This document shows positions 8,003 to 25,615 of a DNA stretch of 36,008 nucleotides, piece by piece. The stretch comes from Spirochaetaceae bacterium (GTDB taxonomy: Bacteria > Spirochaetota > Spirochaetia > Treponematales > Breznakiellaceae), in contig JAITIR010000104.1 of assembly GCA_031279285.1 (NCBI GenBank), forward strand, positions 1-36,008, in the 5' to 3' direction. The notes beneath the pieces are model-generated. The model made no database searches, was not told the origin of the DNA, and worked only from the letters and a program-made list of their open reading frames with translations. The translations under genes were made by a program, and so were the position numbers. The stretch's first letter is position 1. Each line of letters opens with the position of its first letter.

Positions 8003-8470
8003 ATGGATTTAATACCACGTTTGCGTGCCGACGATCTGTTGCCTATGGCGGTCAGCAACCCTAAGCACATGGACAACGCCGGCATAGTGGGTTTTGGCGG
8101 CTCGCGTGACCACGGTGGCGCGATAAAGGATTTTCGCGGGCGGCAGCTAGGGCAGGGGGCTGCGATAGCGGAAACCGGCGTAAAGATAGGCGCGGACGCA
8201 GTGCTAAGGGCGGGGAGTCTGGGAGTTTCCGGCCTTAACCGGACGGACGGCGCGAACTTTGCTGATGTGATGCTGCGCGCAATAGACGGGGTTTCCGGCG
8301 ACCAGAACAGGGTATCGGCGTTGACTGAGGCTGCCATAACGGACCCCGGTTCGGTTGACATCCACGATCTGACGATCGCCGAAGCCGAGGCCACGATGTC
8401 GCTAAACATAGCCCGTACGCTGCTGAGCCGTCTGACTCAGGCCTGGAGGGACATAATCAACACAAGATAG
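8003..8470 (+). CDS. fliE: Flagellar hook-basal body protein FliE with long N-terminal extension
   Basis: The C-terminal ~75 residues are typical FliE (FADVMLRAIDGVSGDQNRVS, then VDIHDLTIAEAEATMSLNIART and a final LTQAWRDI), the MS-ring/rod junction protein. At 155 residues it is clearly longer than the usual ~100-110. The extra N-terminal stretch (residues 1-80) is glycine-rich with no recognised domain. The ATG at 8003 has GAGGGAGAT upstream and no better internal ribosome binding site was found, so I keep the long start. It sits between flgC and fliF in the operon. Confidence 0.9.
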   Translation: MDLIPRLRADDLLPMAVSNPKHMDNAGIVGFGGSRDHGGAIKDFRGRQLGQGAAIAETGVKIGADAVLRAGSLGVSGLNRTDGANFADVMLRAIDGVSGDQNRVSALTEAAITDPGSVDIHDLTIAEAEATMSLNIARTLLSRLTQAWRDIINTR

Positions 8471-8537
8471 CGAATCAACACGCGCAAGCGTTTTGATCAC
8501 TTGTTAGGGGCCGTAAGGCCCGCCTTGGGAGGGGAAA

Positions 8538-10244
8538 ATGGGAGAATTTTTAAGGAAGCTGGTAGAGCAGTTCAGGATGTTGTGGGGACGCTGGACGCTG
8601 ATTCAGCGGCTGATACTTGGCGGCATTGTGGCTGTGTCCATCATCGCCATTGTGGTGATGGTGTCCGTTTCGTCCCGGCCGGGCATGATTCCGGTGATAG
8701 ACACGCCGGTTGTGAACGAGGAGCAGCGGGCTGCCATCGTTACCCGCATAAACGCCGAGGGGGTAAAGACGCAAGTTTCGTCCACCGGCGTTGTGTACGT
8801 GGCGGACGAGGACACGGCGCGGCGCATGAGGGCCATCCTTATCCGTGAAGACCTTGTACCACGGGGCACAGACCCCTGGGCGCTGTTCGACAGGGACCGC
8901 TGGACGATCACCGATTTTGAGCGGAACGTAAACCTGCGCCGCGCTATAACCACGATGGTCACCGACCACATACGCTCGCTTTCCGAGATTGACGATGCCA
9001 ACGTAGTGATAGAGATGCCTGAACGTACGCTGTTTACGGCGGACCAGAATCCGGTAACGGCCAGCGTGATCATAACGCCCAGACCGGGCAGCGATATTAC
9101 AAACGACAGGAAAAAAATCGAAGGCATCCAAAAGCTACTGATGTTTGCGGTTGAAGGTTTAAAACCTGAAAACGTCGTAATTACCGACCAGAATGGCCTT
9201 GTGCTAAACGATTTTGCCGGCATGGCGGAGATAGACAGGCTTGCCCGTATAGAAAAGGAAATTAAAATCGTGCGGGATACGGAGGCAAAGTACCGCGCCG
9301 ACATACTCCGGGCCTTGCAGGTAAACTTTTCCAGCGACCGTGTCCGCGACCTTAACATAAAAATCGACATGGATATGTCGAAAAAGGCTGTCGAATCGCA
9401 GAAAATCACCCCGATCATCCTGAAAGAGAGGACGCCGGGTCTTTCATACGACGATTCCGAGCGGGCGCGCTCGCTCACGCTGTCCGAAACCACATCAAAA
9501 ACCACATGGAAGGGCACGGGCTTTAACCCTGAAGGCCCCCCTGGTGTCGAGGGTCAGACCCCGCCCGCATACCGCGACATGTCTAACCTGTACGGCGAGG
9601 TGACACAGGAAACCCGCACGCACAACGAGGAGTTTAACCGCGAGGAGATAACGGAAGAACGCAGCCCGAAGATAGACCGGATAAGCGTTTCCGTGAATAT
9701 AGACGGAACCTGGGAGCGCAAGCGGGACGAGAAGGGCAAGATCGTCTACCTGCCGGACGGCAGAGTGGAGCGTGAATACAAGCCCGTCTCGCCTGAGGAA
9801 CTGAGCAAGACTCAGGCGCTGATCGAGGGGGCGGTGGGGTTCAACGCGACGCGCGGCGATATTGTGCGGGTGCAGAACATCCAGATCGACCGGAGCGCTC
9901 AGTTCGCGGCGGAAGATGCCGCCCTGATCAGGCAGCGCCAGATTCAGCTTACTATCATAGCAAGCCTTATCGGGCTGGCGTTTTTGATGATAAGCTTTGT
10001 ACTGTTCCAGATCGTCCGCAGGGCGCGGGAAGCGGCCCGGCGCAGGCGGGAGGAGGAACTTGCCCGTCAGCACCAGCTTATGCGTGAGGAAGCCCTGCTC
10101 CGCGCCGAAAGCGAAGGGCAGGATGTCGCGATGTCCGTCGAGGAGCAGGCGCGTATGGAACTTCAGGAAAAGGCGATCAACCTTGCCAAAGAACATCCCG
10201 CTGATGTGGCCCAGTTGATAAGAACATGGATAATGGAGGATTAG
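8538..10244 (+). CDS. fliF: Flagellar MS-ring protein FliF
   Basis: A 568-residue inner-membrane ring protein of normal length. There are two membrane segments: about 25-45 (LILGGIVAVSIIAIVVMVSV) and about 471-493 (IIASLIGLAFLMISFVLF). The large periplasmic YscJ/FliF domain lies between them, including the PGMIPVIDTPVV and EDLVPRGTDPWALFD segments. The cytoplasmic C-terminus is charged and ends in KEHPADVAQLIRTWIMED, the FliG-binding tail. GGGAGGGG precedes the ATG. The 67-bp gap after fliE has a small GGGCC-GTAA-GGCCC hairpin. Confidence 0.97.
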   Translation: MGEFLRKLVEQFRMLWGRWTLIQRLILGGIVAVSIIAIVVMVSVSSRPGMIPVIDTPVVNEEQRAAIVTRINAEGVKTQVSSTGVVYVADEDTARRMRAILIREDLVPRGTDPWALFDRDRWTITDFERNVNLRRAITTMVTDHIRSLSEIDDANVVIEMPERTLFTADQNPVTASVIITPRPGSDITNDRKKIEGIQKLLMFAVEGLKPENVVITDQNGLVLNDFAGMAEIDRLARIEKEIKIVRDTEAKYRADILRALQVNFSSDRVRDLNIKIDMDMSKKAVESQKITPIILKERTPGLSYDDSERARSLTLSETTSKTTWKGTGFNPEGPPGVEGQTPPAYRDMSNLYGEVTQETRTHNEEFNREEITEERSPKIDRISVSVNIDGTWERKRDEKGKIVYLPDGRVEREYKPVSPEELSKTQALIEGAVGFNATRGDIVRVQNIQIDRSAQFAAEDAALIRQRQIQLTIIASLIGLAFLMISFVLFQIVRRAREAARRRREEELARQHQLMREEALLRAESEGQDVAMSVEEQARMELQEKAINLAKEHPADVAQLIRTWIMED

Positions 10245-12706: not shown

Positions 12707-14401
12707 ATGAAGAGAAACATTGTATTAGTACAAGGGATGTTAGCCGCGCTGCTGGCATTGAATCTGGTTTTTGCGGGGTGTGAGAACGGTACTACGGATG
12801 ATCCCGGCGATGATCCAAAAACGTTGGTCATTACAGGTATAACTCAGGACCTGCTTGGTTATGGGACACCGAGTATTAAAATTGGAATTTTTCCGGTTGG
12901 AACAAGCCTGGAACAGGCATCACAACAGACAGGTATTGTTGCCGGAGCAGACAGCGAGCAAAATGCTGTAACACTTTCGCAATCAGCGCCTTATACCGCA
13001 ACCGCATTGCTCTATGTTCCTGATAACAGCGGAAGGTGGACGGGTTCCGGCACTTACGATATTTATATTTTAGTAAATGGTGATAGCTATTATCTGGCAC
13101 AAAATGTCTCATTTAACGACGCCACAACAACGGTTGACTTAGAGGATTTCACTTCTCCTCTATCCTCATACACCGTAACATTCGAGGGCAACGGTGGAAT
13201 CCCCGCTCCGGAGAGTCAAACCATAACAGAAGGCAAAAAAATAAGCCCGCCTCCCGCCATGACCAAGAGCGGCTATGTTTTTGAGGCATGGTATAAGGAA
13301 GCGACTTTTACAAGTCCATGGAATTTTTCCAGTGATACCGTAAAAGCCGATACCACGCTCTACGCCAATTGGACTGTGGTTCCACAAGGTTCATTGGCGG
13401 TAACATTCGAGACTAACGGCGGGACTTCTGTTCCGGGGCAAGTTGTAACATCCGGCGGGAACGTAACTAAACCGACTGACCCAACAAGGGACGGATACAG
13501 CTTCAGCGGCTGGTATAAGGAAGCGACTCTTACAAGTCCATGGAATTTTTCCAGTGATACCGTAAGCGCCAATACCACGCTCTACGCCAGTTGGACGCCT
13601 ACAACCTATAGCATCATGTATCACCTGGACGGCGGGACCAACAGCAGCGCGAACCCGGCCACGTACACTGTAGAAAGCCCAGCCATTAACCTTGCAGCCC
13701 CCACCCGTGCGAACTATGACTTTGCGGGCTGGTACACCACCAGCAGTCTTAGCGGGAGTCAGGTTACCAGCATCCCCAAGGGCAGTACCGGGGACAAAAC
13801 TTTTTACGCCAGGTGGACGCCTATAACCTATAGCATCATGTATCACCTGGACGGCGGGACCAACAGCAGCGCGAACCCGGCCACGTACACTGTAGAAAGC
13901 CAAGCCATTAGCCTTGCAGCCCCCGCCCGCGCGAACTATGACTTTGCCGGCTGGTACGCCACCGCCAGTTTTAGCGGGAGTCCGGTTACCGTCATCCCCG
14001 CGGGCAGTACCGGGGACAAAACTTTTTACGCCAGGTGGACGCAGAAAAATAATCCTGAAAAAACGTTGGTCATTACAGGTATAACTGAGGACCTGCTTGG
14101 TTATGGGACACCGAGTATTCAAATTGGAATTTTTACGGGTGGAACATCCCCGGACCAGGCATTACAAGGGACAGGTATTGTTGCCGGAGCAGACAGCGTG
14201 GAAGGTGCTGTAACACTTTCGCAATCAGCGCCTTATACCGCAACCGCATCGCTCTATGTTCCTGGTAGCGGAAGGTGGACGGGTTCCGGCACTTACGATA
14301 TTTACATTGTAGTAGGTGGTAATAACTATTATCGGGCACAAAAGGTCTCATTTAACGACGCCACAACAACGGTTTCCGCAGGGGCTTTCTCATCTTTATA
14401 A
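12707..14401 (+). CDS. Lipoprotein with four InlB-type (Listeria-Bacteroides) repeats between duplicated domains
   Basis: A 564-residue surface lipoprotein; lipobox VFAGC puts the modified cysteine at residue 25. A ~105-residue domain (TLVITGIT.DLLGYGTPSI to NDATTTV) occurs near the N-terminus and again at the C-terminus. Between them are four InlB B-repeat/Flg_new units, each ending in GWY....FYARW or LYA.W. Units three and four are near-identical tandem copies with a 222-nt period (13611 vs 13833). InlB B-repeats are beta-grasp modules found in adhesins and surface proteins. The nucleotide identity between copies suggests recent duplication or gene conversion. Start supported by AAGGAG and by the leader shared with the gene at 1167. 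Confidence 0.88.
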   Translation: MKRNIVLVQGMLAALLALNLVFAGCENGTTDDPGDDPKTLVITGITQDLLGYGTPSIKIGIFPVGTSLEQASQQTGIVAGADSEQNAVTLSQSAPYTATALLYVPDNSGRWTGSGTYDIYILVNGDSYYLAQNVSFNDATTTVDLEDFTSPLSSYTVTFEGNGGIPAPESQTITEGKKISPPPAMTKSGYVFEAWYKEATFTSPWNFSSDTVKADTTLYANWTVVPQGSLAVTFETNGGTSVPGQVVTSGGNVTKPTDPTRDGYSFSGWYKEATLTSPWNFSSDTVSANTTLYASWTPTTYSIMYHLDGGTNSSANPATYTVESPAINLAAPTRANYDFAGWYTTSSLSGSQVTSIPKGSTGDKTFYARWTPITYSIMYHLDGGTNSSANPATYTVESQAISLAAPARANYDFAGWYATASFSGSPVTVIPAGSTGDKTFYARWTQKNNPEKTLVITGITEDLLGYGTPSIQIGIFTGGTSPDQALQGTGIVAGADSVEGAVTLSQSAPYTATASLYVPGSGRWTGSGTYDIYIVVGGNNYYRAQKVSFNDATTTVSAGAFSSL

Positions 14402-19301: not shown

Positions 19302-20525
19302 ATGCTTGCGCATTCAGGGGGCAGCGATACAAGGAATATTCCGTTTTCCCGTCCGTTTATCGGGAAGGAGGAGGAGGATGCCGTGTTGCGGGTGTTGAGG
19401 TCCGGCTGGCTCACGACCGCGGAGGAGGCATTGGCCTTTGAACAGGAATTCGCGGAACGCCTCAGCCGGACTGCGGCGTCGCCGCTTGCCGCCGCCGCAG
19501 TAAGCAGCGCGACGGGCGGCCTCCACATAGCGCTGGAAGCTTCCGGCCTGCGGACGGGAGATGTGGTCCTTGTGCCGACTTATACCTTCGCGGCCACAGC
19601 CGAGGTCGCTATCCATGTTGGCGCTGAAGTGGCGTTTATCGACTGCGCGGAGGACTCTTTCCTGCTGGACACAAAGGCTCTTGAAAGGACGGCGCGTCGG
19701 CTCAGTGAAGGTAAAACGGCCTACGAAACGGGCGGACCTGCCGGTAGGCCGGGCGCCGTCGTGCCGGTGCACTTCGGCGGCCTCTGCTGCGATATGAAGG
19801 CCGTCAACGAAGCGGCCCGCCGTTACGGTATGGCCGTGGTGGAAGATGCCGCCCACGCCTTCCCCTCATACTCCGAAACGGGCGAACCTGCCGGTGCTTT
19901 AGGGGACGTGGGTGTCTTTTCGTTTTACGCTACGAAAACGATTACGACGGGCGAAGGCGGGATGGTGGTGAGCCGCAGCCATGACATGATAAAACGGGCA
20001 GCCTTGCTGCGCTACCACGGCATAAACCGGCCTGTCTGGGACCGGTATACCGAAGCTGCGGCTTCCTGGTACTACGAAGTTGCCGAGGCCGGCCATAAAT
20101 ACAACCTTCCCGACATACTTGCCGCTATAGGCCGTGTTCAACTGCGGCGGACGGACGATCTGTTGGAAAAACGTAAACGTATCGCGGCCTGTTATGACGC
20201 GGCCTTTTCCACGAGTCCATTCTTTTCGATCCCGCCCAGCGCGTCAGGCGACGCGCGCCACCTGTACCCGTTACGCCTAAACCCGCCGCTTGCCGCCGTC
20301 CGTGACGACTGTATAAAAAAACTCCAGGAATGGGGGGTAGGCGTGTCGGTTCACTTTATACCGCTGCACACGATGCCGTACTACAGGAAACGTTACGGGA
20401 CTAAATACGGTGACTTTCCGCGGGCGGAGGACGCGTACAGCCGCGTGATCTCGCTGCCTATATGGCCCGGCATGACGGACGGGCAGGTAGAGCGGGTTAT
20501 CGATTCGGTTTTCAAACTGGTATGA
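19302..20525 (+). CDS. DegT/DnrJ/EryC1/StrS-family PLP aminotransferase
   Basis: A 407-residue sugar-aminotransferase-type enzyme. The family start PFSRPFIGKEEEDAVLRVLRSGWLT, the PLP region SSATGGLHIAL, VEDAAHAF and the PLP lysine Lys212 in FSFYATKTITTGEGG are all intact. Such enzymes usually make amino sugars for envelope glycans, but no glycan gene is next to this one. Its stop overlaps the start of the hydroxylase-like large subunit (ATGA). The start is forced by an upstream stop (TAG at 19297); no Shine-Dalgarno is obvious. As I recall, T. pallidum TP0078 (annotated SpsC) lies close to TP0080 (annotated quinoline 2-oxidoreductase), which would be the same arrangement. Confidence 0.92.
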   Translation: MLAHSGGSDTRNIPFSRPFIGKEEEDAVLRVLRSGWLTTAEEALAFEQEFAERLSRTAASPLAAAAVSSATGGLHIALEASGLRTGDVVLVPTYTFAATAEVAIHVGAEVAFIDCAEDSFLLDTKALERTARRLSEGKTAYETGGPAGRPGAVVPVHFGGLCCDMKAVNEAARRYGMAVVEDAAHAFPSYSETGEPAGALGDVGVFSFYATKTITTGEGGMVVSRSHDMIKRAALLRYHGINRPVWDRYTEAAASWYYEVAEAGHKYNLPDILAAIGRVQLRRTDDLLEKRKRIAACYDAAFSTSPFFSIPPSASGDARHLYPLRLNPPLAAVRDDCIKKLQEWGVGVSVHFIPLHTMPYYRKRYGTKYGDFPRAEDAYSRVISLPIWPGMTDGQVERVIDSVFKLV

Positions 20526-22357
20526 GGGAAGCATCCTTGTTTGTAGACGATATATTCCTGGACAACCAGTACCTGGCCGTAACGATACGTTCACCGGCCG
20601 CGAATTGCATATTAAAAGACATACACTGCCCCACACTCGACAATAAGTACAGGCTGATACGGGCCGCCGATATTCCCGGTCGGAATCGTTTGGCGGGCGG
20701 CGACGTGCCGGTACTTGCCTCGGAAAAGCTTTGCTACATCGGTGAACCGGTAGCAATACTTGTGGGTCCTGACGGAGCAAAACTCGAAGAGCTTGCCGCG
20801 GAGGTCGTCGTCGAGACGGAGCCTACCGCGCCTCCGCTACTTTCGATCGACTCAGCCGATGCGGAGATCACCGCGCAGCTAATGCTCGACACGGAGGCTT
20901 TTCCAAAAAATGTTTGCGCGCCGAAAGAGAAGCCTACGGCGGACGAAGCGGATGACTCGACGGAGGCCCTTACCTCGCCGCCCAACCCGGATCCCGCCGT
21001 TGTAGCCGGCTCTTACAGAACCGGCGCCCAGGAACACTGGTACAGCGAGCCGCACGGCGCCCTTGCCGGTCTCCTTGACAACGGCTTGATCGTGCACACT
21101 GCGACACAGTGGCCGAATCATGTGAAACAGAGCGTCGCGGAAGCCTTGTCCTTACCTGTCGGCGCTGTCTCCGTTAAAACGGCTGATCTGGGGATTCACC
21201 TTGACGGAAAGATATGGTATCCGTCCCTCGTTGCCGTTCACGCCGCTCTTGCCGCGTTTATCACAAAAATGCCGGTTAAACTGATGTTGACACGTGAGGA
21301 GGACTTTCTTTTTTCGCCAAAACGTCCGGAAACCGTGCTGGAATTTTCCAGCCTGCTCGATCCTAAAGGCGAGCCTTACGAAACGACGGTAAATATAAGG
21401 ACCGGTTTTGGGGCGGAAACTTTTTTTGCAGACGCGATGCTGGGCAGTATTGCGCGGGCGGCTGCCGGCTATTACAGGTTGGGACGCATACGGGTAAAGG
21501 CGGAGGCGGTAAAGACGAATCTGCCGCCGGCCTGTCCGTTTGCTGGTTTCGGCGCGGCGCAGGGGTTTTTCGCGCTTGAACGTCATATCGCCAGGATTGC
21601 CGATACCGTGCACGTTGAGGGTTCCGAGTGGCGCGGCCATCATTTTAACGAAAAGAAGATGCCGGTAGACGACTGGGAAAAATTGACAGGCGATATGATA
21701 AAACAGTGTGATTACAAACGAAAATGGGCCGCATACGAGTTGCTGTGCCGACGCTGGAGGGAGACAGGCGAGAAAATAAGCCCTATGCGCGGCATCGGCA
21801 TTGCCGCCGTCACGTACGGCGGCGAGAAAACCCGCTACAGCCTTGTCGGTAAGTCCGCCGGCCTGTCCGTCTCCTACGCCGACTCGCCCCCGGTTGCCGC
21901 CGCAGTCGTTGAACTGGAGATCGACAGGATCGACTTTTCCGCAAACATACGCTGCGCCTGTATATCCGTCCGTGCCGGCGTGCTGAACGATAAACGCGCC
22001 GCCCGCCGCAAACTGCTACAAAACAGCATCGCTGCTTTCGGCTGGACCGCCATCGAAAAACTTGAATACAGGGACGGACAAATTGGCGAAAACGTGCCGG
22101 CTGAGTACAGGCTCCCGACGCCCTCCTCCACTCCCCCTATAAAGATCATTTTTTCCGAAAGGGCAGGCGTGGAAGAAAACCCGGATGCTATTGGTGAGTT
22201 GCCGTACTGTGTATTTCCTGCTGCATACCTACAGGCGCTTACACAGGCCTGCGGTCACCACTTCGAGGCCATACCGGTGTTTGCCCGCGACATTTGGCGC
22301 GCCGTTGAAGGCCGTGAACGCCGCGGACAGGAATCGCATGGAGAAAAAGAAGAATGA
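20522..22357 (+). CDS. Xanthine dehydrogenase/CO dehydrogenase large-subunit homologue with decayed cofactor motifs
   Basis: A 611-residue homologue of the molybdopterin-binding large subunit, which is usually about 750 residues. The N-terminal hammerhead domain is recognisable (VTIRSPAANCILKDI, then SEKLCYIGEPVAILVG), as are TQWPNHVKQSVAEALSLP and a C-terminal IGELPYCVFPAAYLQALTQACG, which keeps the glutamate at the catalytic GVGE position. The central GGGFGGK motif instead reads LGIHLDGK. The RGFG motif reads FAGFGAAQ, lacking the arginine. The domain after it is short. Binding of a normal molybdenum cofactor is therefore doubtful. Start ATG overlaps the DegT stop, and the end overlaps the next ATG, both by ATGA. 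An upstream in-frame start lies inside the DegT gene and is not needed. Confidence 0.82.
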   Translation: MREASLFVDDIFLDNQYLAVTIRSPAANCILKDIHCPTLDNKYRLIRAADIPGRNRLAGGDVPVLASEKLCYIGEPVAILVGPDGAKLEELAAEVVVETEPTAPPLLSIDSADAEITAQLMLDTEAFPKNVCAPKEKPTADEADDSTEALTSPPNPDPAVVAGSYRTGAQEHWYSEPHGALAGLLDNGLIVHTATQWPNHVKQSVAEALSLPVGAVSVKTADLGIHLDGKIWYPSLVAVHAALAAFITKMPVKLMLTREEDFLFSPKRPETVLEFSSLLDPKGEPYETTVNIRTGFGAETFFADAMLGSIARAAAGYYRLGRIRVKAEAVKTNLPPACPFAGFGAAQGFFALERHIARIADTVHVEGSEWRGHHFNEKKMPVDDWEKLTGDMIKQCDYKRKWAAYELLCRRWRETGEKISPMRGIGIAAVTYGGEKTRYSLVGKSAGLSVSYADSPPVAAAVVELEIDRIDFSANIRCACISVRAGVLNDKRAARRKLLQNSIAAFGWTAIEKLEYRDGQIGENVPAEYRLPTPSSTPPIKIIFSERAGVEENPDAIGELPYCVFPAAYLQALTQACGHHFEAIPVFARDIWRAVEGRERRGQESHGEKEE

Positions 22358-22839
22358 CGATAGCTTTCATCTTGAACGGTGAAGATGTTAAGGTAGAAGC
22401 GGAGCCGAACCGGCGGCTTATAGAAATACTGCGCGGCAATTTTATGCTGTACGGCGCAAAATGCGGCTGCTTGAGCGGTAGCTGCGGCGCCTGCGCCGTC
22501 ATATTTAACGGCTCTGTGAGTTCCGCCTGCCTGATACCGGCATTCCGTATACGAGGCAGTGAGGTTATAACGATCGAAGGTTTCTCGCTCACGGATAATT
22601 ACAGCGATATCGTCCGCGCATTCAATCTCAGCGATGTGGAGAACTGCGGTTTCTGCGACACGGCAAAGATTCTTTTAACCGAAACCCTGCTTACCGAAAA
22701 GGAACTGCCGACGCGCGCCGAGATTCTTTCAGCCTTCAACAACATAAGGTGCCGCTGCACGCTGGGCGAAAATCTGGCGGACGCTGTTATAGCTGCGGCG
22801 GATATACGCCAACGGAGACGTCGTGAACGAAAAAATTAG
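22354..22839 (+). CDS. [2Fe-2S] small subunit of the hydroxylase-like complex (CoxS/XdhC-like)
   Basis: A 161-residue iron-sulfur subunit. The plant-type cluster ligands Cys39, Cys44, Cys47 and Cys59 (CGCLSGSCGAC) and the second-cluster ligands Cys98, Cys101, Cys133 and Cys135 (NCGFC, RCRC) are all present. Unlike its partners, it has kept its cofactor-binding residues, so electron transfer is probably still its job. The second cluster motif reads CRCTLGEN rather than the usual CRCTGY. The start overlaps the large subunit stop by 4 nt and the end overlaps the next gene by 17 nt. Confidence 0.9.
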   Translation: MTIAFILNGEDVKVEAEPNRRLIEILRGNFMLYGAKCGCLSGSCGACAVIFNGSVSSACLIPAFRIRGSEVITIEGFSLTDNYSDIVRAFNLSDVENCGFCDTAKILLTETLLTEKELPTRAEILSAFNNIRCRCTLGENLADAVIAAADIRQRRRRERKN

Positions 22840-23656
22840 TCAGATTTTTTACCCGTCCAACATGCAGGAATTTTTTGGCGCGTTAAACCACATTGACAGC
22901 GTAGATATTTTTTCCGTCAGCGCCCGGCAGATACAGAAACAGCACGGCAGGATGATTACAATGCCCAAAGTTATCATTAATACTGATAACCTTGCGGATC
23001 TGAATAACATCAACCGCACCGAGCGTTACATAGAAATAGGCTCAATGGTAAGTTTGCAGCAGATCTGCAAGTTGGGAAAGATTGTTCCTTCCGCCATCAG
23101 GCAGGCACTGGATTGCCTGTACAGCAGATTCCTGCGAAACACACTAAGTATGGGCTGCATCATTTACCAAAATTCTGACTACGAGCCGCTTGCCGCCGCG
23201 CTGATAGCCCTGGACGTCCGCTGCGAACTGCGTACGAATTCACAGTCCCGCTGGATCAGCATGTTACGTCTTACCGGCCCCGAAAAAGCCCGCGTTTTTC
23301 TTCCCCATGAAATCCTGTACCGTATCAGAATTCCGCTCGACCAGTGGGATTTTACCCTTTGCAGGCATTTCGACGATGTAAACGAGACCCACGATAAATC
23401 TGGTTTCATAGTTTTCCTTGCCCGCATTCAGAACAACATCCTGTCCGATATCCGCATAGTATTTTCAGGCGTCTCCATAATCCATGACAGAAACTGTGAA
23501 ACGAGTCTTCTGGGTAAAAAGCTCCCGCTCGGTAAAAGGGACGCCGCGGCCTTCATACATCTTTGGAAAAATTCCCTGCCCGAAGGTACGCCCCCATTCC
23601 TTGTTAGCCGCATCCTGTCATTCGTAGAAACCGCAATCTTGAATTTCACCGGTTAG
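22823..23656 (+). CDS. FAD-subunit homologue (CoxM/XdhB-like) with decayed FAD loops
   Basis: A 277-residue relative of the FAD-binding medium subunit. The overall plan is visible: FYPSNMQEFFGAL at the start, IEIGSMVSLQQI for the usual 'l.IGA.vt...i', RNTLSMGCIIYQNSDYEPLAAALIALD for 'RN.aTiGGNi....sD..p.L.aLda', and a C-terminal domain. The FAD-binding AGGTDL loop reads SVSARQI and the GGN loop reads MGC, so FAD binding may be lost or changed. It starts with GTG at 22823, overlapping the [2Fe-2S] gene by 17 nt, and is the last gene of the operon. Confidence 0.75.
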   Translation: MNEKISQIFYPSNMQEFFGALNHIDSVDIFSVSARQIQKQHGRMITMPKVIINTDNLADLNNINRTERYIEIGSMVSLQQICKLGKIVPSAIRQALDCLYSRFLRNTLSMGCIIYQNSDYEPLAAALIALDVRCELRTNSQSRWISMLRLTGPEKARVFLPHEILYRIRIPLDQWDFTLCRHFDDVNETHDKSGFIVFLARIQNNILSDIRIVFSGVSIIHDRNCETSLLGKKLPLGKRDAAAFIHLWKNSLPEGTPPFLVSRILSFVETAILNFTG

Positions 23657-23940: not shown

Positions 23941-25107
23941 CTAGAATTGGGACAAGATACGGTGCACCGCGCCGACAAGCGCGTTAATGTCATCAATTTT
24001 TGTGGTCCACCCAAACGAAATGCGTATAGCAGTAAATGCAAGCGCGTCGTCGATTCCGATAGCGTTCAGTACGGGACGCTTTTTTGAACCTGTGGAGCAG
24101 GCGGAACCTGTCGAAACGGCAAAACCCAGATCGTCAAGCGCGCGCACCATCACCTCGCCCGGAATATCTTTGAAGGCCGCCTGCAAAATGTACGGCGAAT
24201 ACCGTTCGTCTACAGCCTGCCTGCATTCGGGGATGATCGTACAGCGTTTCATTCCGCGCAGGGCTTCAATAAGACAGGCCATATTCGCTGTCGCCTCCTC
24301 GTGGGCTTTTATCTGCGTCTCCGTCCTAAAACGGATTGCTTCAGCAAAATGACACGCGCCGAGGGTGTTCTCCGTACCGGGCCGGATATCTCCCTCCTGC
24401 CCGCCGCCCTTGCAAAGTACCTGTACCGGTTTACGCAGGTACAGAACACCTATTCCGCGCGGGCCGCCTACCTTGTGCGCACTGAAAGCCGCTGAATCTA
24501 TGTCCATATCACGAAGCGTAAACGGGATTTTCCCAAGGGCCTGTACCATGTCGCTGTGTATATGAAGCGCCTTGCCGTCCCGCTTCCGCGCAGTTTTTAC
24601 CAAAGAGGACAGATCGGAAATCGCGCCGGTTTCGTTGTTAACGTACATCAGCGCAAGCATCGTTGCGTCTGTATACTTGCGCAAGGCTTTTTCCAACGCG
24701 CCTGGAACGGCGGCGCCGTATCCGTCAACACTAATACAGTGTACGGGGATACCCATATACTCAAGCGGCGCGCGATTTTTTGTTATAGATGGATGCTCCG
24801 CCGCGGTCGTGATTAAACCCTGCTTAACGCCGCCGGCGTGACCGTAAAGCATCGAAAAAAGGATTATGGCGTTCGCTTCCGTAGCGCCGGATGTAAAATA
24901 GATTGTCCCCTCGTCCGCGCCTAGCGCTTCCATACAGACGCGGCGGGCTTCCTCCAGCGCGGCGCGCGCGGCGCGTCCCTCCGAATGACCGGAAGACGGG
25001 TTGCCGAAAAAACCCGGACGGTCCAAGTCCTTAAGCGTACAAAGCCGATTTAGGAGAAACGGCGCGCTAGCCGCCCAGTCAAAATAGAATCGCCCGTTCT
25101 TGTTCAA
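23941..25107 (-). CDS. Cysteine desulfurase (NifS/IscS-like)
   Basis: A 388-residue PLP enzyme that takes sulfur from cysteine for Fe-S clusters or tRNA. It has YFDWAASAPF at the N-terminus, the SGATEANAIIL PLP motif, AAEHPSI, the PLP lysine in SAHKVGGPRGIG, and the active-site cysteine in STGSACSTGSKKR. The frame is open to 25203, but those extra codons come from a dispersed repeat and the upstream gene's end. I choose TTG at 25107, directly before the family-typical N-terminus; no good Shine-Dalgarno is visible. No iscU or iscR lies nearby. Confidence 0.9.
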   Translation of the reverse strand: MNKNGRFYFDWAASAPFLLNRLCTLKDLDRPGFFGNPSSGHSEGRAARAALEEARRVCMEALGADEGTIYFTSGATEANAIILFSMLYGHAGGVKQGLITTAAEHPSITKNRAPLEYMGIPVHCISVDGYGAAVPGALEKALRKYTDATMLALMYVNNETGAISDLSSLVKTARKRDGKALHIHSDMVQALGKIPFTLRDMDIDSAAFSAHKVGGPRGIGVLYLRKPVQVLCKGGGQEGDIRPGTENTLGACHFAEAIRFRTETQIKAHEEATANMACLIEALRGMKRCTIIPECRQAVDERYSPYILQAAFKDIPGEVMVRALDDLGFAVSTGSACSTGSKKRPVLNAIGIDDALAFTAIRISFGWTTKIDDINALVGAVHRILSQF

Positions 25108-25108
25108 A

Positions 25109-25190
25109 TTTATTCTGTCTTGGGGTTTAATACCCCGCCGCAAATTTTGCGCGCAAACTTGTTTGCGTACTCTGCGTCGGGGAGCTTCAT
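25109..25190. repeat. Conserved-end, variable-interior repeat, copy 2
   Basis: TTATTCTGTCTTGGGGTTTA and ATACCCCGCCGC at one end and GTCGGGGAGCTTCAT at the other match 19086-19197. Seen on the minus strand it begins TGAAGCTCCCCG; this TGA is the stop codon of the upstream gene, and the other end abuts the TTG start of the cysteine desulfurase. The element thus fills the whole junction. Its interior (GCAAATTTTGCGCGCAAACTTGTTTGCG-type inverted repeats) differs from copy 1. Confidence 0.72.
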
Positions 25191-25615
25191 TGTTCTGTGG
25201 CAATCACGTAGACAACATTACCGAAACCCCTGCGCCCGCGGTACTCATAGTTGATCACTATCGTATTGGTATTGTCCGGACCAGGGTTTACCGTTATGTA
25301 AGCGTTAAGCGGCCTTACCGTTACCCCGCGCGTCCGCCGCCGCCATATTACGGGATTGCCCGTACCCTCATCATTATAGAACTCGTACTGTTTCGAGTCC
25401 CTCTCCCTCACGCCCGAAAGTTTTAGCGTAAAACTTCTCAGCGCCAAAATTGAGCTCTGACTTATTGTTACAAGCGGTTCGTAAAGTTTTGTCGTGTCCA
25501 CGCCGGAAACTGATGCCTTTATGAGACGCCCGATAACCTGCCCATCGGCAAACAGTGAAACCGCGCAGCCAAGCGTCAATCCCGCTAAAAAAATAACTCT
25601 TTTTGTTGACAGCAT
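25187..25615 (-). CDS. Small secreted protein of unknown function
   Basis: A 142-residue protein with a clear signal peptide (KRVIFLAGLTLGCAVSLFADG, cleavage probably after FA or ADG near residue 24). The lipobox-like GC has no good context, so I expect a soluble or membrane-associated periplasmic protein. The mature part is beta-rich, with basic RRRTRG and a tyrosine/glycine-rich end. I recognise no family. GGGGGCGGGT precedes the ATG. The stop codon is supplied by a dispersed repeat. Confidence 0.75.
   Translation of the reverse strand: MLSTKRVIFLAGLTLGCAVSLFADGQVIGRLIKASVSGVDTTKLYEPLVTISQSSILALRSFTLKLSGVRERDSKQYEFYNDEGTGNPVIWRRRTRGVTVRPLNAYITVNPGPDNTNTIVINYEYRGRRGFGNVVYVIATEQ

Follow-up and report, generated by a model that had tools for sequence, protein, structure and literature searches.

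What becomes of a molybdenum hydroxylase once the residues that hold its cofactor are gone, and why do its genes still lie beside that of a sugar aminotransferase? This question is raised by a four-gene operon in a stretch of 36,008 nucleotides (hereafter the window; contig JAITIR010000104.1 of assembly GCA_031279285.1) from a Spirochaetaceae bacterium of the GTDB family Breznakiellaceae. The operon, like every feature described within it, is on the forward strand, and encodes a pyridoxal phosphate (PLP)-dependent sugar aminotransferase of the DegT family (AT; 19302..20525, 407 amino acids), a protein resembling the large molybdopterin subunit (20522..22357, 611 amino acids, starting in an ATGA overlap with the AT stop), a two-cluster [2Fe-2S] subunit (22354..22839, 161 amino acids, with an ATG start again in an ATGA overlap) and a protein resembling the flavin adenine dinucleotide (FAD) subunit (22823..23656, 277 amino acids, GTG start). 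The last three are called here the triad. This order, with overlaps of 4, 4 and 17 nt, is exactly that given in the original prediction, which was made from the letters of the window. We consider it rather likely that the triad descends from a molybdenum hydroxylase, does without molybdenum and has been reused in a pathway for 4-amino-sugar nucleotides. The genes of a conserved and selected complex have remained beside a sugar-nucleotide pathway although the cofactor that defines its family is gone, and searches of open-access papers found no study of the triad or its operon.

Origin of the triad and loss of the molybdenum site

The triad descends from the xanthine oxidase family, as indicated by Pfam matches for all three subunits (PF02738, MoCoBD_1, 3.5e-40 for the large subunit; PF01799, Fer2_2, and PF00111, Fer2, for the [2Fe-2S] subunit; PF00941, FAD_binding_5, 4.5e-17 for the FAD-like subunit) and by the folds of the large and FAD-like subunits. 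AlphaFold2 (AF2) models of single subunits as monomers reached a pLDDT of 81 and pTM of 0.83 for the large subunit, which matched large subunits of the xanthine dehydrogenase type in Foldseek with TMq up to 0.80, and a pLDDT of 85 and pTM of 0.84 for the FAD-like subunit, with the lowest confidence around residues 31-50 and a match to 4zoh_B (TMq 0.75; medium subunits about 0.75). The FAD-like sequence alone gave no PDB match by phmmer, and its family profile did. Of the Pfam model MoCoBD_2, only the last third (profile positions 200-283) matches the large subunit, below the cut-off, and a search of the window's genome with it returned no match; since even the window's large subunit goes undetected, this model is unusable as a marker.

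The distribution of the triad was examined by a profile search across 393 Spirochaetota genomes, mostly drafts, one of which (G034) is Breznakiella homolactica (NZ_CP067089.2), and by reading 58 large subunits in their loci, a hand-picked set rather than a census. A tree was made of 66 large subunits, in which a branch with 100% support splits the AT-type sequences (58 rows) from canonical rows, which carry GG[AG]FGGKE and FRGFG and have no AT, and the AT-type part broadly tracks taxonomy.

The original prediction had pointed to LGIHLDGK in place of (M)GGGFGGK in the first molybdopterin loop (residues 223-230, 21188..21211, read directly), and to FAGFG in place of FRGFG (residues 340-344, 21539..21553), where the pterin-binding arginine is gone; both substitutions are there as described. 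The alignment bore out the loss of the site, as neither GGGFGG nor the arginine of FRGFG was kept in any of the 58 large subunits of the clade. MGQG has not been retained by the full-length rows, all 13 short members have gaps at its columns, and the equivalent of Gln1194 is replaced, with no glutamine among the listed residues of the clade. The triad thus lacks the residues of active enzymes of the xanthine oxidase family: GGGFGGK, the arginine of FRGFG, the glutamine of MGQG and the Gln1194 equivalent. Judged by the alignment, the loss is ancestral and general to the clade, and not a decay special to the window.

The catalytic glutamate survives in the window, which the original prediction overlooked: by phmmer alignment, E559 of GELP (22196..22198) corresponds to E730 of XdhB of R. 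capsulatus. The residue is found in 28 of the 45 full-length members; among the 13 short ones, where it occurs in 6, it is not conserved. About 40 columns are conserved at 85% or more over the whole large-subunit set, most of them common to canonical enzymes too; of those specific to the clade, the clearest one by the former active site holds a tryptophan (W232 in the window, 21215..21217, adjoining that site in the alignment), found in 42 of 45 full-length and 11 of 13 short members, where canonical rows have histidine.

Selection acts on what remains. Between members of the window's genus, all four genes have a ratio of nonsynonymous to synonymous substitution rates (dN/dS) of 0.10-0.24; they are therefore under purifying selection and, given also the confident folds, encode functional proteins, neither chance reading frames nor pseudogenes. 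It is consequently unlikely that the triad is a functionless relic, decaying and kept by its operon position alone. The progressive and independent losses of cofactor sites, and the missing match in some genomes that are 94% complete (G011 and G078), would fit such a relic; against it stand the dN/dS values, the persistence of the triad after separation from the operon, its retention of all three genes in a reduced genome of 1.14 Mb (locus L173, see below) and a large-subunit relative with open frames in 138 of the 150 genomes of the window's family, a count that may include canonical relatives. The two genomes without a match, together with G130 and G141, are genus or family members in which no large-subunit match was found; since G011 and G078 are 94% complete, the complex is dispensable in some lineages.

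Genes for molybdenum cofactor synthesis

MoaC is required for making molybdopterin. Its absence was judged in single contigs or in genomes at least 90% complete: of the 43 genomes that reach this completeness and hold the clade, 26 lack MoaC, 12 of these being single-contig; MoeA is also missing in 20 of 21 MoaC-less genomes tested. Among the genomes without MoaC is G205 (locus L173), a reduced genome in a single contig of 1,139,633 bp with all three triad genes, which, being of the size of T. pallidum Nichols, we take to be that species. A complex kept in so many genomes without the molybdenum cofactor (Moco) could hardly be a molybdenum enzyme, and because the motifs are kept in 0 of 58 large subunits and MoaC is missing in 26 of 43 genomes, the site was lost ancestrally and there is hardly any need for molybdopterin. 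The original prediction described T. pallidum as lacking molybdopterin synthesis, and the genes for it are indeed absent from G205 and many others. In the window's own lineage Moco is made: MoaA, MoeA and a MOSC-MogA fusion are encoded in the window's genome, and six genus members have MoaC.

These genes might suggest that the triad is an ordinary Moco-binding hydroxylase of unusual sequence, since its large subunit is the only one found in the Moco-making genome of the window: this incomplete genome, which also encodes YqeC, yielded no canonical molybdenum hydroxylase, and both E559 and the glutamine of ATQW are kept. We regard this as very improbable. The pterin-binding motifs are gone clade-wide, part of the second Moco domain is missing in the window, many near-complete genomes with the operon lack MoaC and MoeA, and formate-dehydrogenase-type molybdoenzymes of the genus account for Moco synthesis. 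Proteins of this type occur in the window's genus and family (G141, G052, G010, G061 and others), several with one in-frame TGA, as would be expected for selenocysteine enzymes, and Moco in the window's lineage is most likely made for them; that it serves the triad was considered and rejected on these grounds. YqeC of the window's genome scores above the cut-off of TIGR03172, a selenium-hydroxylase cofactor protein, and lies near MoaA and the MOSC-MogA fusion (locus L053, G000:C82; 1330-2109, 7160-8128 and 8131-9108).

The xanthine oxidase family (XdhAB of R. capsulatus, quinoline 2-oxidoreductase, carbon monoxide dehydrogenase) resembles the triad in its three subunits, in the folds of the large and medium subunits and in its two-cluster iron-sulfur subunit; unlike it, the triad clade has no molybdopterin motifs and occurs in genomes without Moco genes, and the window's triad also lacks an intact FAD motif and a block of the second Moco domain. 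That the fold of a large subunit can exist without Mo-pyranopterin is indicated by the title of the structure of apo-carbon monoxide dehydrogenase of H. pseudoflava (1ffu), but there the cofactor is absent from an otherwise canonical enzyme, whereas the triad clade has lost the pocket itself. The label 'quinoline 2-oxidoreductase', given for T. pallidum in the original prediction, is therefore probably wrong for the spirochaete clade.

Lineage-specific losses in the other redox centres

Beyond the molybdenum site, the losses differ from one lineage to another. The window's large subunit is short, as predicted, having 611 amino acids versus about 690-770 in full-length relatives; in the alignment it lacks one block of about 125 residues near residues 432-455 (site at 21815..21886), containing the equivalents of MGQG and the Ser loop, and the model has at this site a disordered linker, with pLDDT below 50 at residues 434-454. 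In the FAD-like subunit, the alignment places SVSARQ at AGGTxL (22913..22930), the lost AGGTDL of the original prediction, and LSMGC at TIGGN (23144..23158), while most full-length relatives retain AGGTDL and TIGGN. Both the missing block and the degraded FAD motifs are marks of a single 13-member clade of the window's family, which holds the window's genus, so that, as read from the alignments, they are a later and local change.

The [2Fe-2S] subunit had been thought to be the only one with its ligands, and in the window it does keep all eight (C39, C44, C47, C59, C98, C101, C133 and C135). Elsewhere the claim fails: all eight cysteines are present in 119 of 127 subunits, and ligands are lost in L173, L178, L186 and L207. 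In G205 the N-terminal cluster has none of its four ligands left, its relatives G420 and G498 have lost most or all of theirs, and at L186 (G279, 8323-8802) the homologue lacks nearly all eight cysteines in an otherwise complete operon. Because the losses differ by lineage, the electron-transfer chain seems dispensable in some lineages and is probably intact in most.

Genetic context and the aminotransferase

The order AT, large, [2Fe-2S] and FAD-like subunit occurs in many spirochaete families and also, as anticipated, in the presumed T. pallidum genome G205, and the 80 listed of 156 relatives are all spirochaetes by title. The triad is conserved across a wide range of spirochaetes, the agent of syphilis seemingly among them. 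In its commonest arrangement (52 loci) the order is LoaP, a CapD-type dehydratase, AT and the triad; this order is probably ancestral. The antiterminator LoaP (NF033641, 135 bits in relatives versus a cut-off of 125) is directly upstream of the dehydratase, a CapD/FlaA1-type protein (PF02719, 1e-108 to 3e-110), which in G205 is directly 5' of the AT. Operons with LoaP have been reported from Spirochaetes (PMC7858274), and the present loci resemble LoaP-controlled biosynthetic operons in that the large subunit is the third gene after LoaP in more than 50 of them; unlike these, the window's operon is not linked to LoaP and begins at the AT, and a CapD orthologue (74% identical) is encoded elsewhere in the window's genome (contig C92).

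The AT belongs to the DegT/DnrJ/EryC1 family (PF01041, 3e-100; 336 bits versus a cut-off of 19.8). Its PLP lysine (K212, 19935-19937) is kept in 47/47 copies, and its best PDB match is ArnB (1mdo, 7.9e-65), the E1-type structures 3bb8 and 3bcx being also matched. It is thus similar to the DegT aminotransferases ArnB and PseC in family, catalytic lysine, nearest solved structure and, in many loci, an adjoining dehydratase, but differs in scoring below both equivalog cut-offs (PseC, 327 versus 423.5 bits; ArnB, 272 versus 631 bits), which are its nearest NCBIfam models, and in its linkage to a triad resembling a molybdenum hydroxylase. The order from LoaP to the triad points to the synthesis of 4-amino-sugar nucleotides.

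Several observations weigh against this reading. Six genomes with the triad (G044, G148, G030, G116, G092 and G505) lack an orthologue of the AT at E <= 1e-60, and in the window's family the triad is often alone, in some genomes with the AT elsewhere; the predicted conservation of a treponemal complex is nonetheless supported. In two of the six (G148 and G030; L057 and L194) the dehydratase lies directly 5' of the large subunit. Coupling to the AT is widespread, probably ancestral and not obligatory. In addition, the catalytic glutamate survives in the window and in 28 of the 45 full-length members, and the 119 of 127 intact [2Fe-2S] subunits, together with FAD motifs that are mostly kept, suggest that the majority of members have kept their redox chemistry.

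Possible function of the triad

From the genomic context we infer the following role. Having lost its cofactor pocket early, a three-subunit molybdenum hydroxylase, old in the Spirochaetia, would have come to work together with two enzymes, a UDP-sugar 4,6-dehydratase of the CapD/FlaA1 type and an aminotransferase resembling ArnB and PseC, in many lineages beside LoaP. The dehydratase would make a 4-keto-6-deoxy sugar nucleotide, which the AT would aminate to a UDP-4-amino-6-deoxy sugar; less certainly, the large subunit might bind the sugar or a protein partner in a rebuilt pocket containing the clade-specific tryptophan. Electron transfer through the FAD-like and [2Fe-2S] subunits may persist in most lineages. 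The chain looks broken in the window's clade and in G205, where the triad is most likely a non-redox scaffold or a partner in substrate handling, because the FAD motifs and the N-terminal cluster, respectively, have been lost. A more specific version, in which the new pocket of the molybdenum-free complex acts on the nucleotide sugar and the flavin and iron-sulfur partners serve or regulate the PLP aminotransferase or the dehydratase reaction, is possible but tentative; if true, its chemistry would be undescribed for the molybdenum hydroxylase family.

An alternative that we think has perhaps one chance in a few is that the triad is a working redox enzyme with a new job, in which the FAD and the two [2Fe-2S] clusters exchange electrons with a sugar intermediate, in the rebuilt pocket or on the pyridoxamine phosphate adduct of the AT, somewhat as in the E1/E3 system of 3,6-dideoxysugar synthesis. 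That system also has a DegT-family enzyme with flavin and [2Fe-2S] partners; E1-type dehydrases share the family of the AT, as the matches to 3bb8 and 3bcx indicate, and the retention of cysteines and FAD motifs described above favors this alternative. Its redox partners, however, belong to another fold family, and E1 dehydrases replace the lysine that the AT keeps, for which reason a dehydration of the E1/E3 type is ranked second. The chain is, moreover, broken at different points in G205, G279 and the window's clade, yet selection on the genes persists in the genus of the window, and some genomes have no AT. Returning to the reuse of the triad in 4-amino-sugar-nucleotide synthesis, the part played by the dehydratase and aminotransferase genes of treponemes and by their odd partners becomes testable in culturable relatives. 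A role in flagellin glycosylation was also considered, as flagellins of T. denticola carry a novel glycan of 450.2 Da (PMC9481697), but no evidence ties this glycan to the operon.

Neighboring genes

Downstream of the triad in the window's family (L046-L049 among the loci), a 3-dehydroquinate synthase and an outer-membrane-like protein for which no Pfam match was obtained are encoded at about 40 loci, often preceded by a winged-helix-like regulator. Within the window, a class-V aminotransferase resembling cysteine desulfurases (23941-25203) is convergent with the operon, and a protein with Listeria-Bacteroides (Flg_new) repeats, likely a surface protein, is encoded at 12707-14401.

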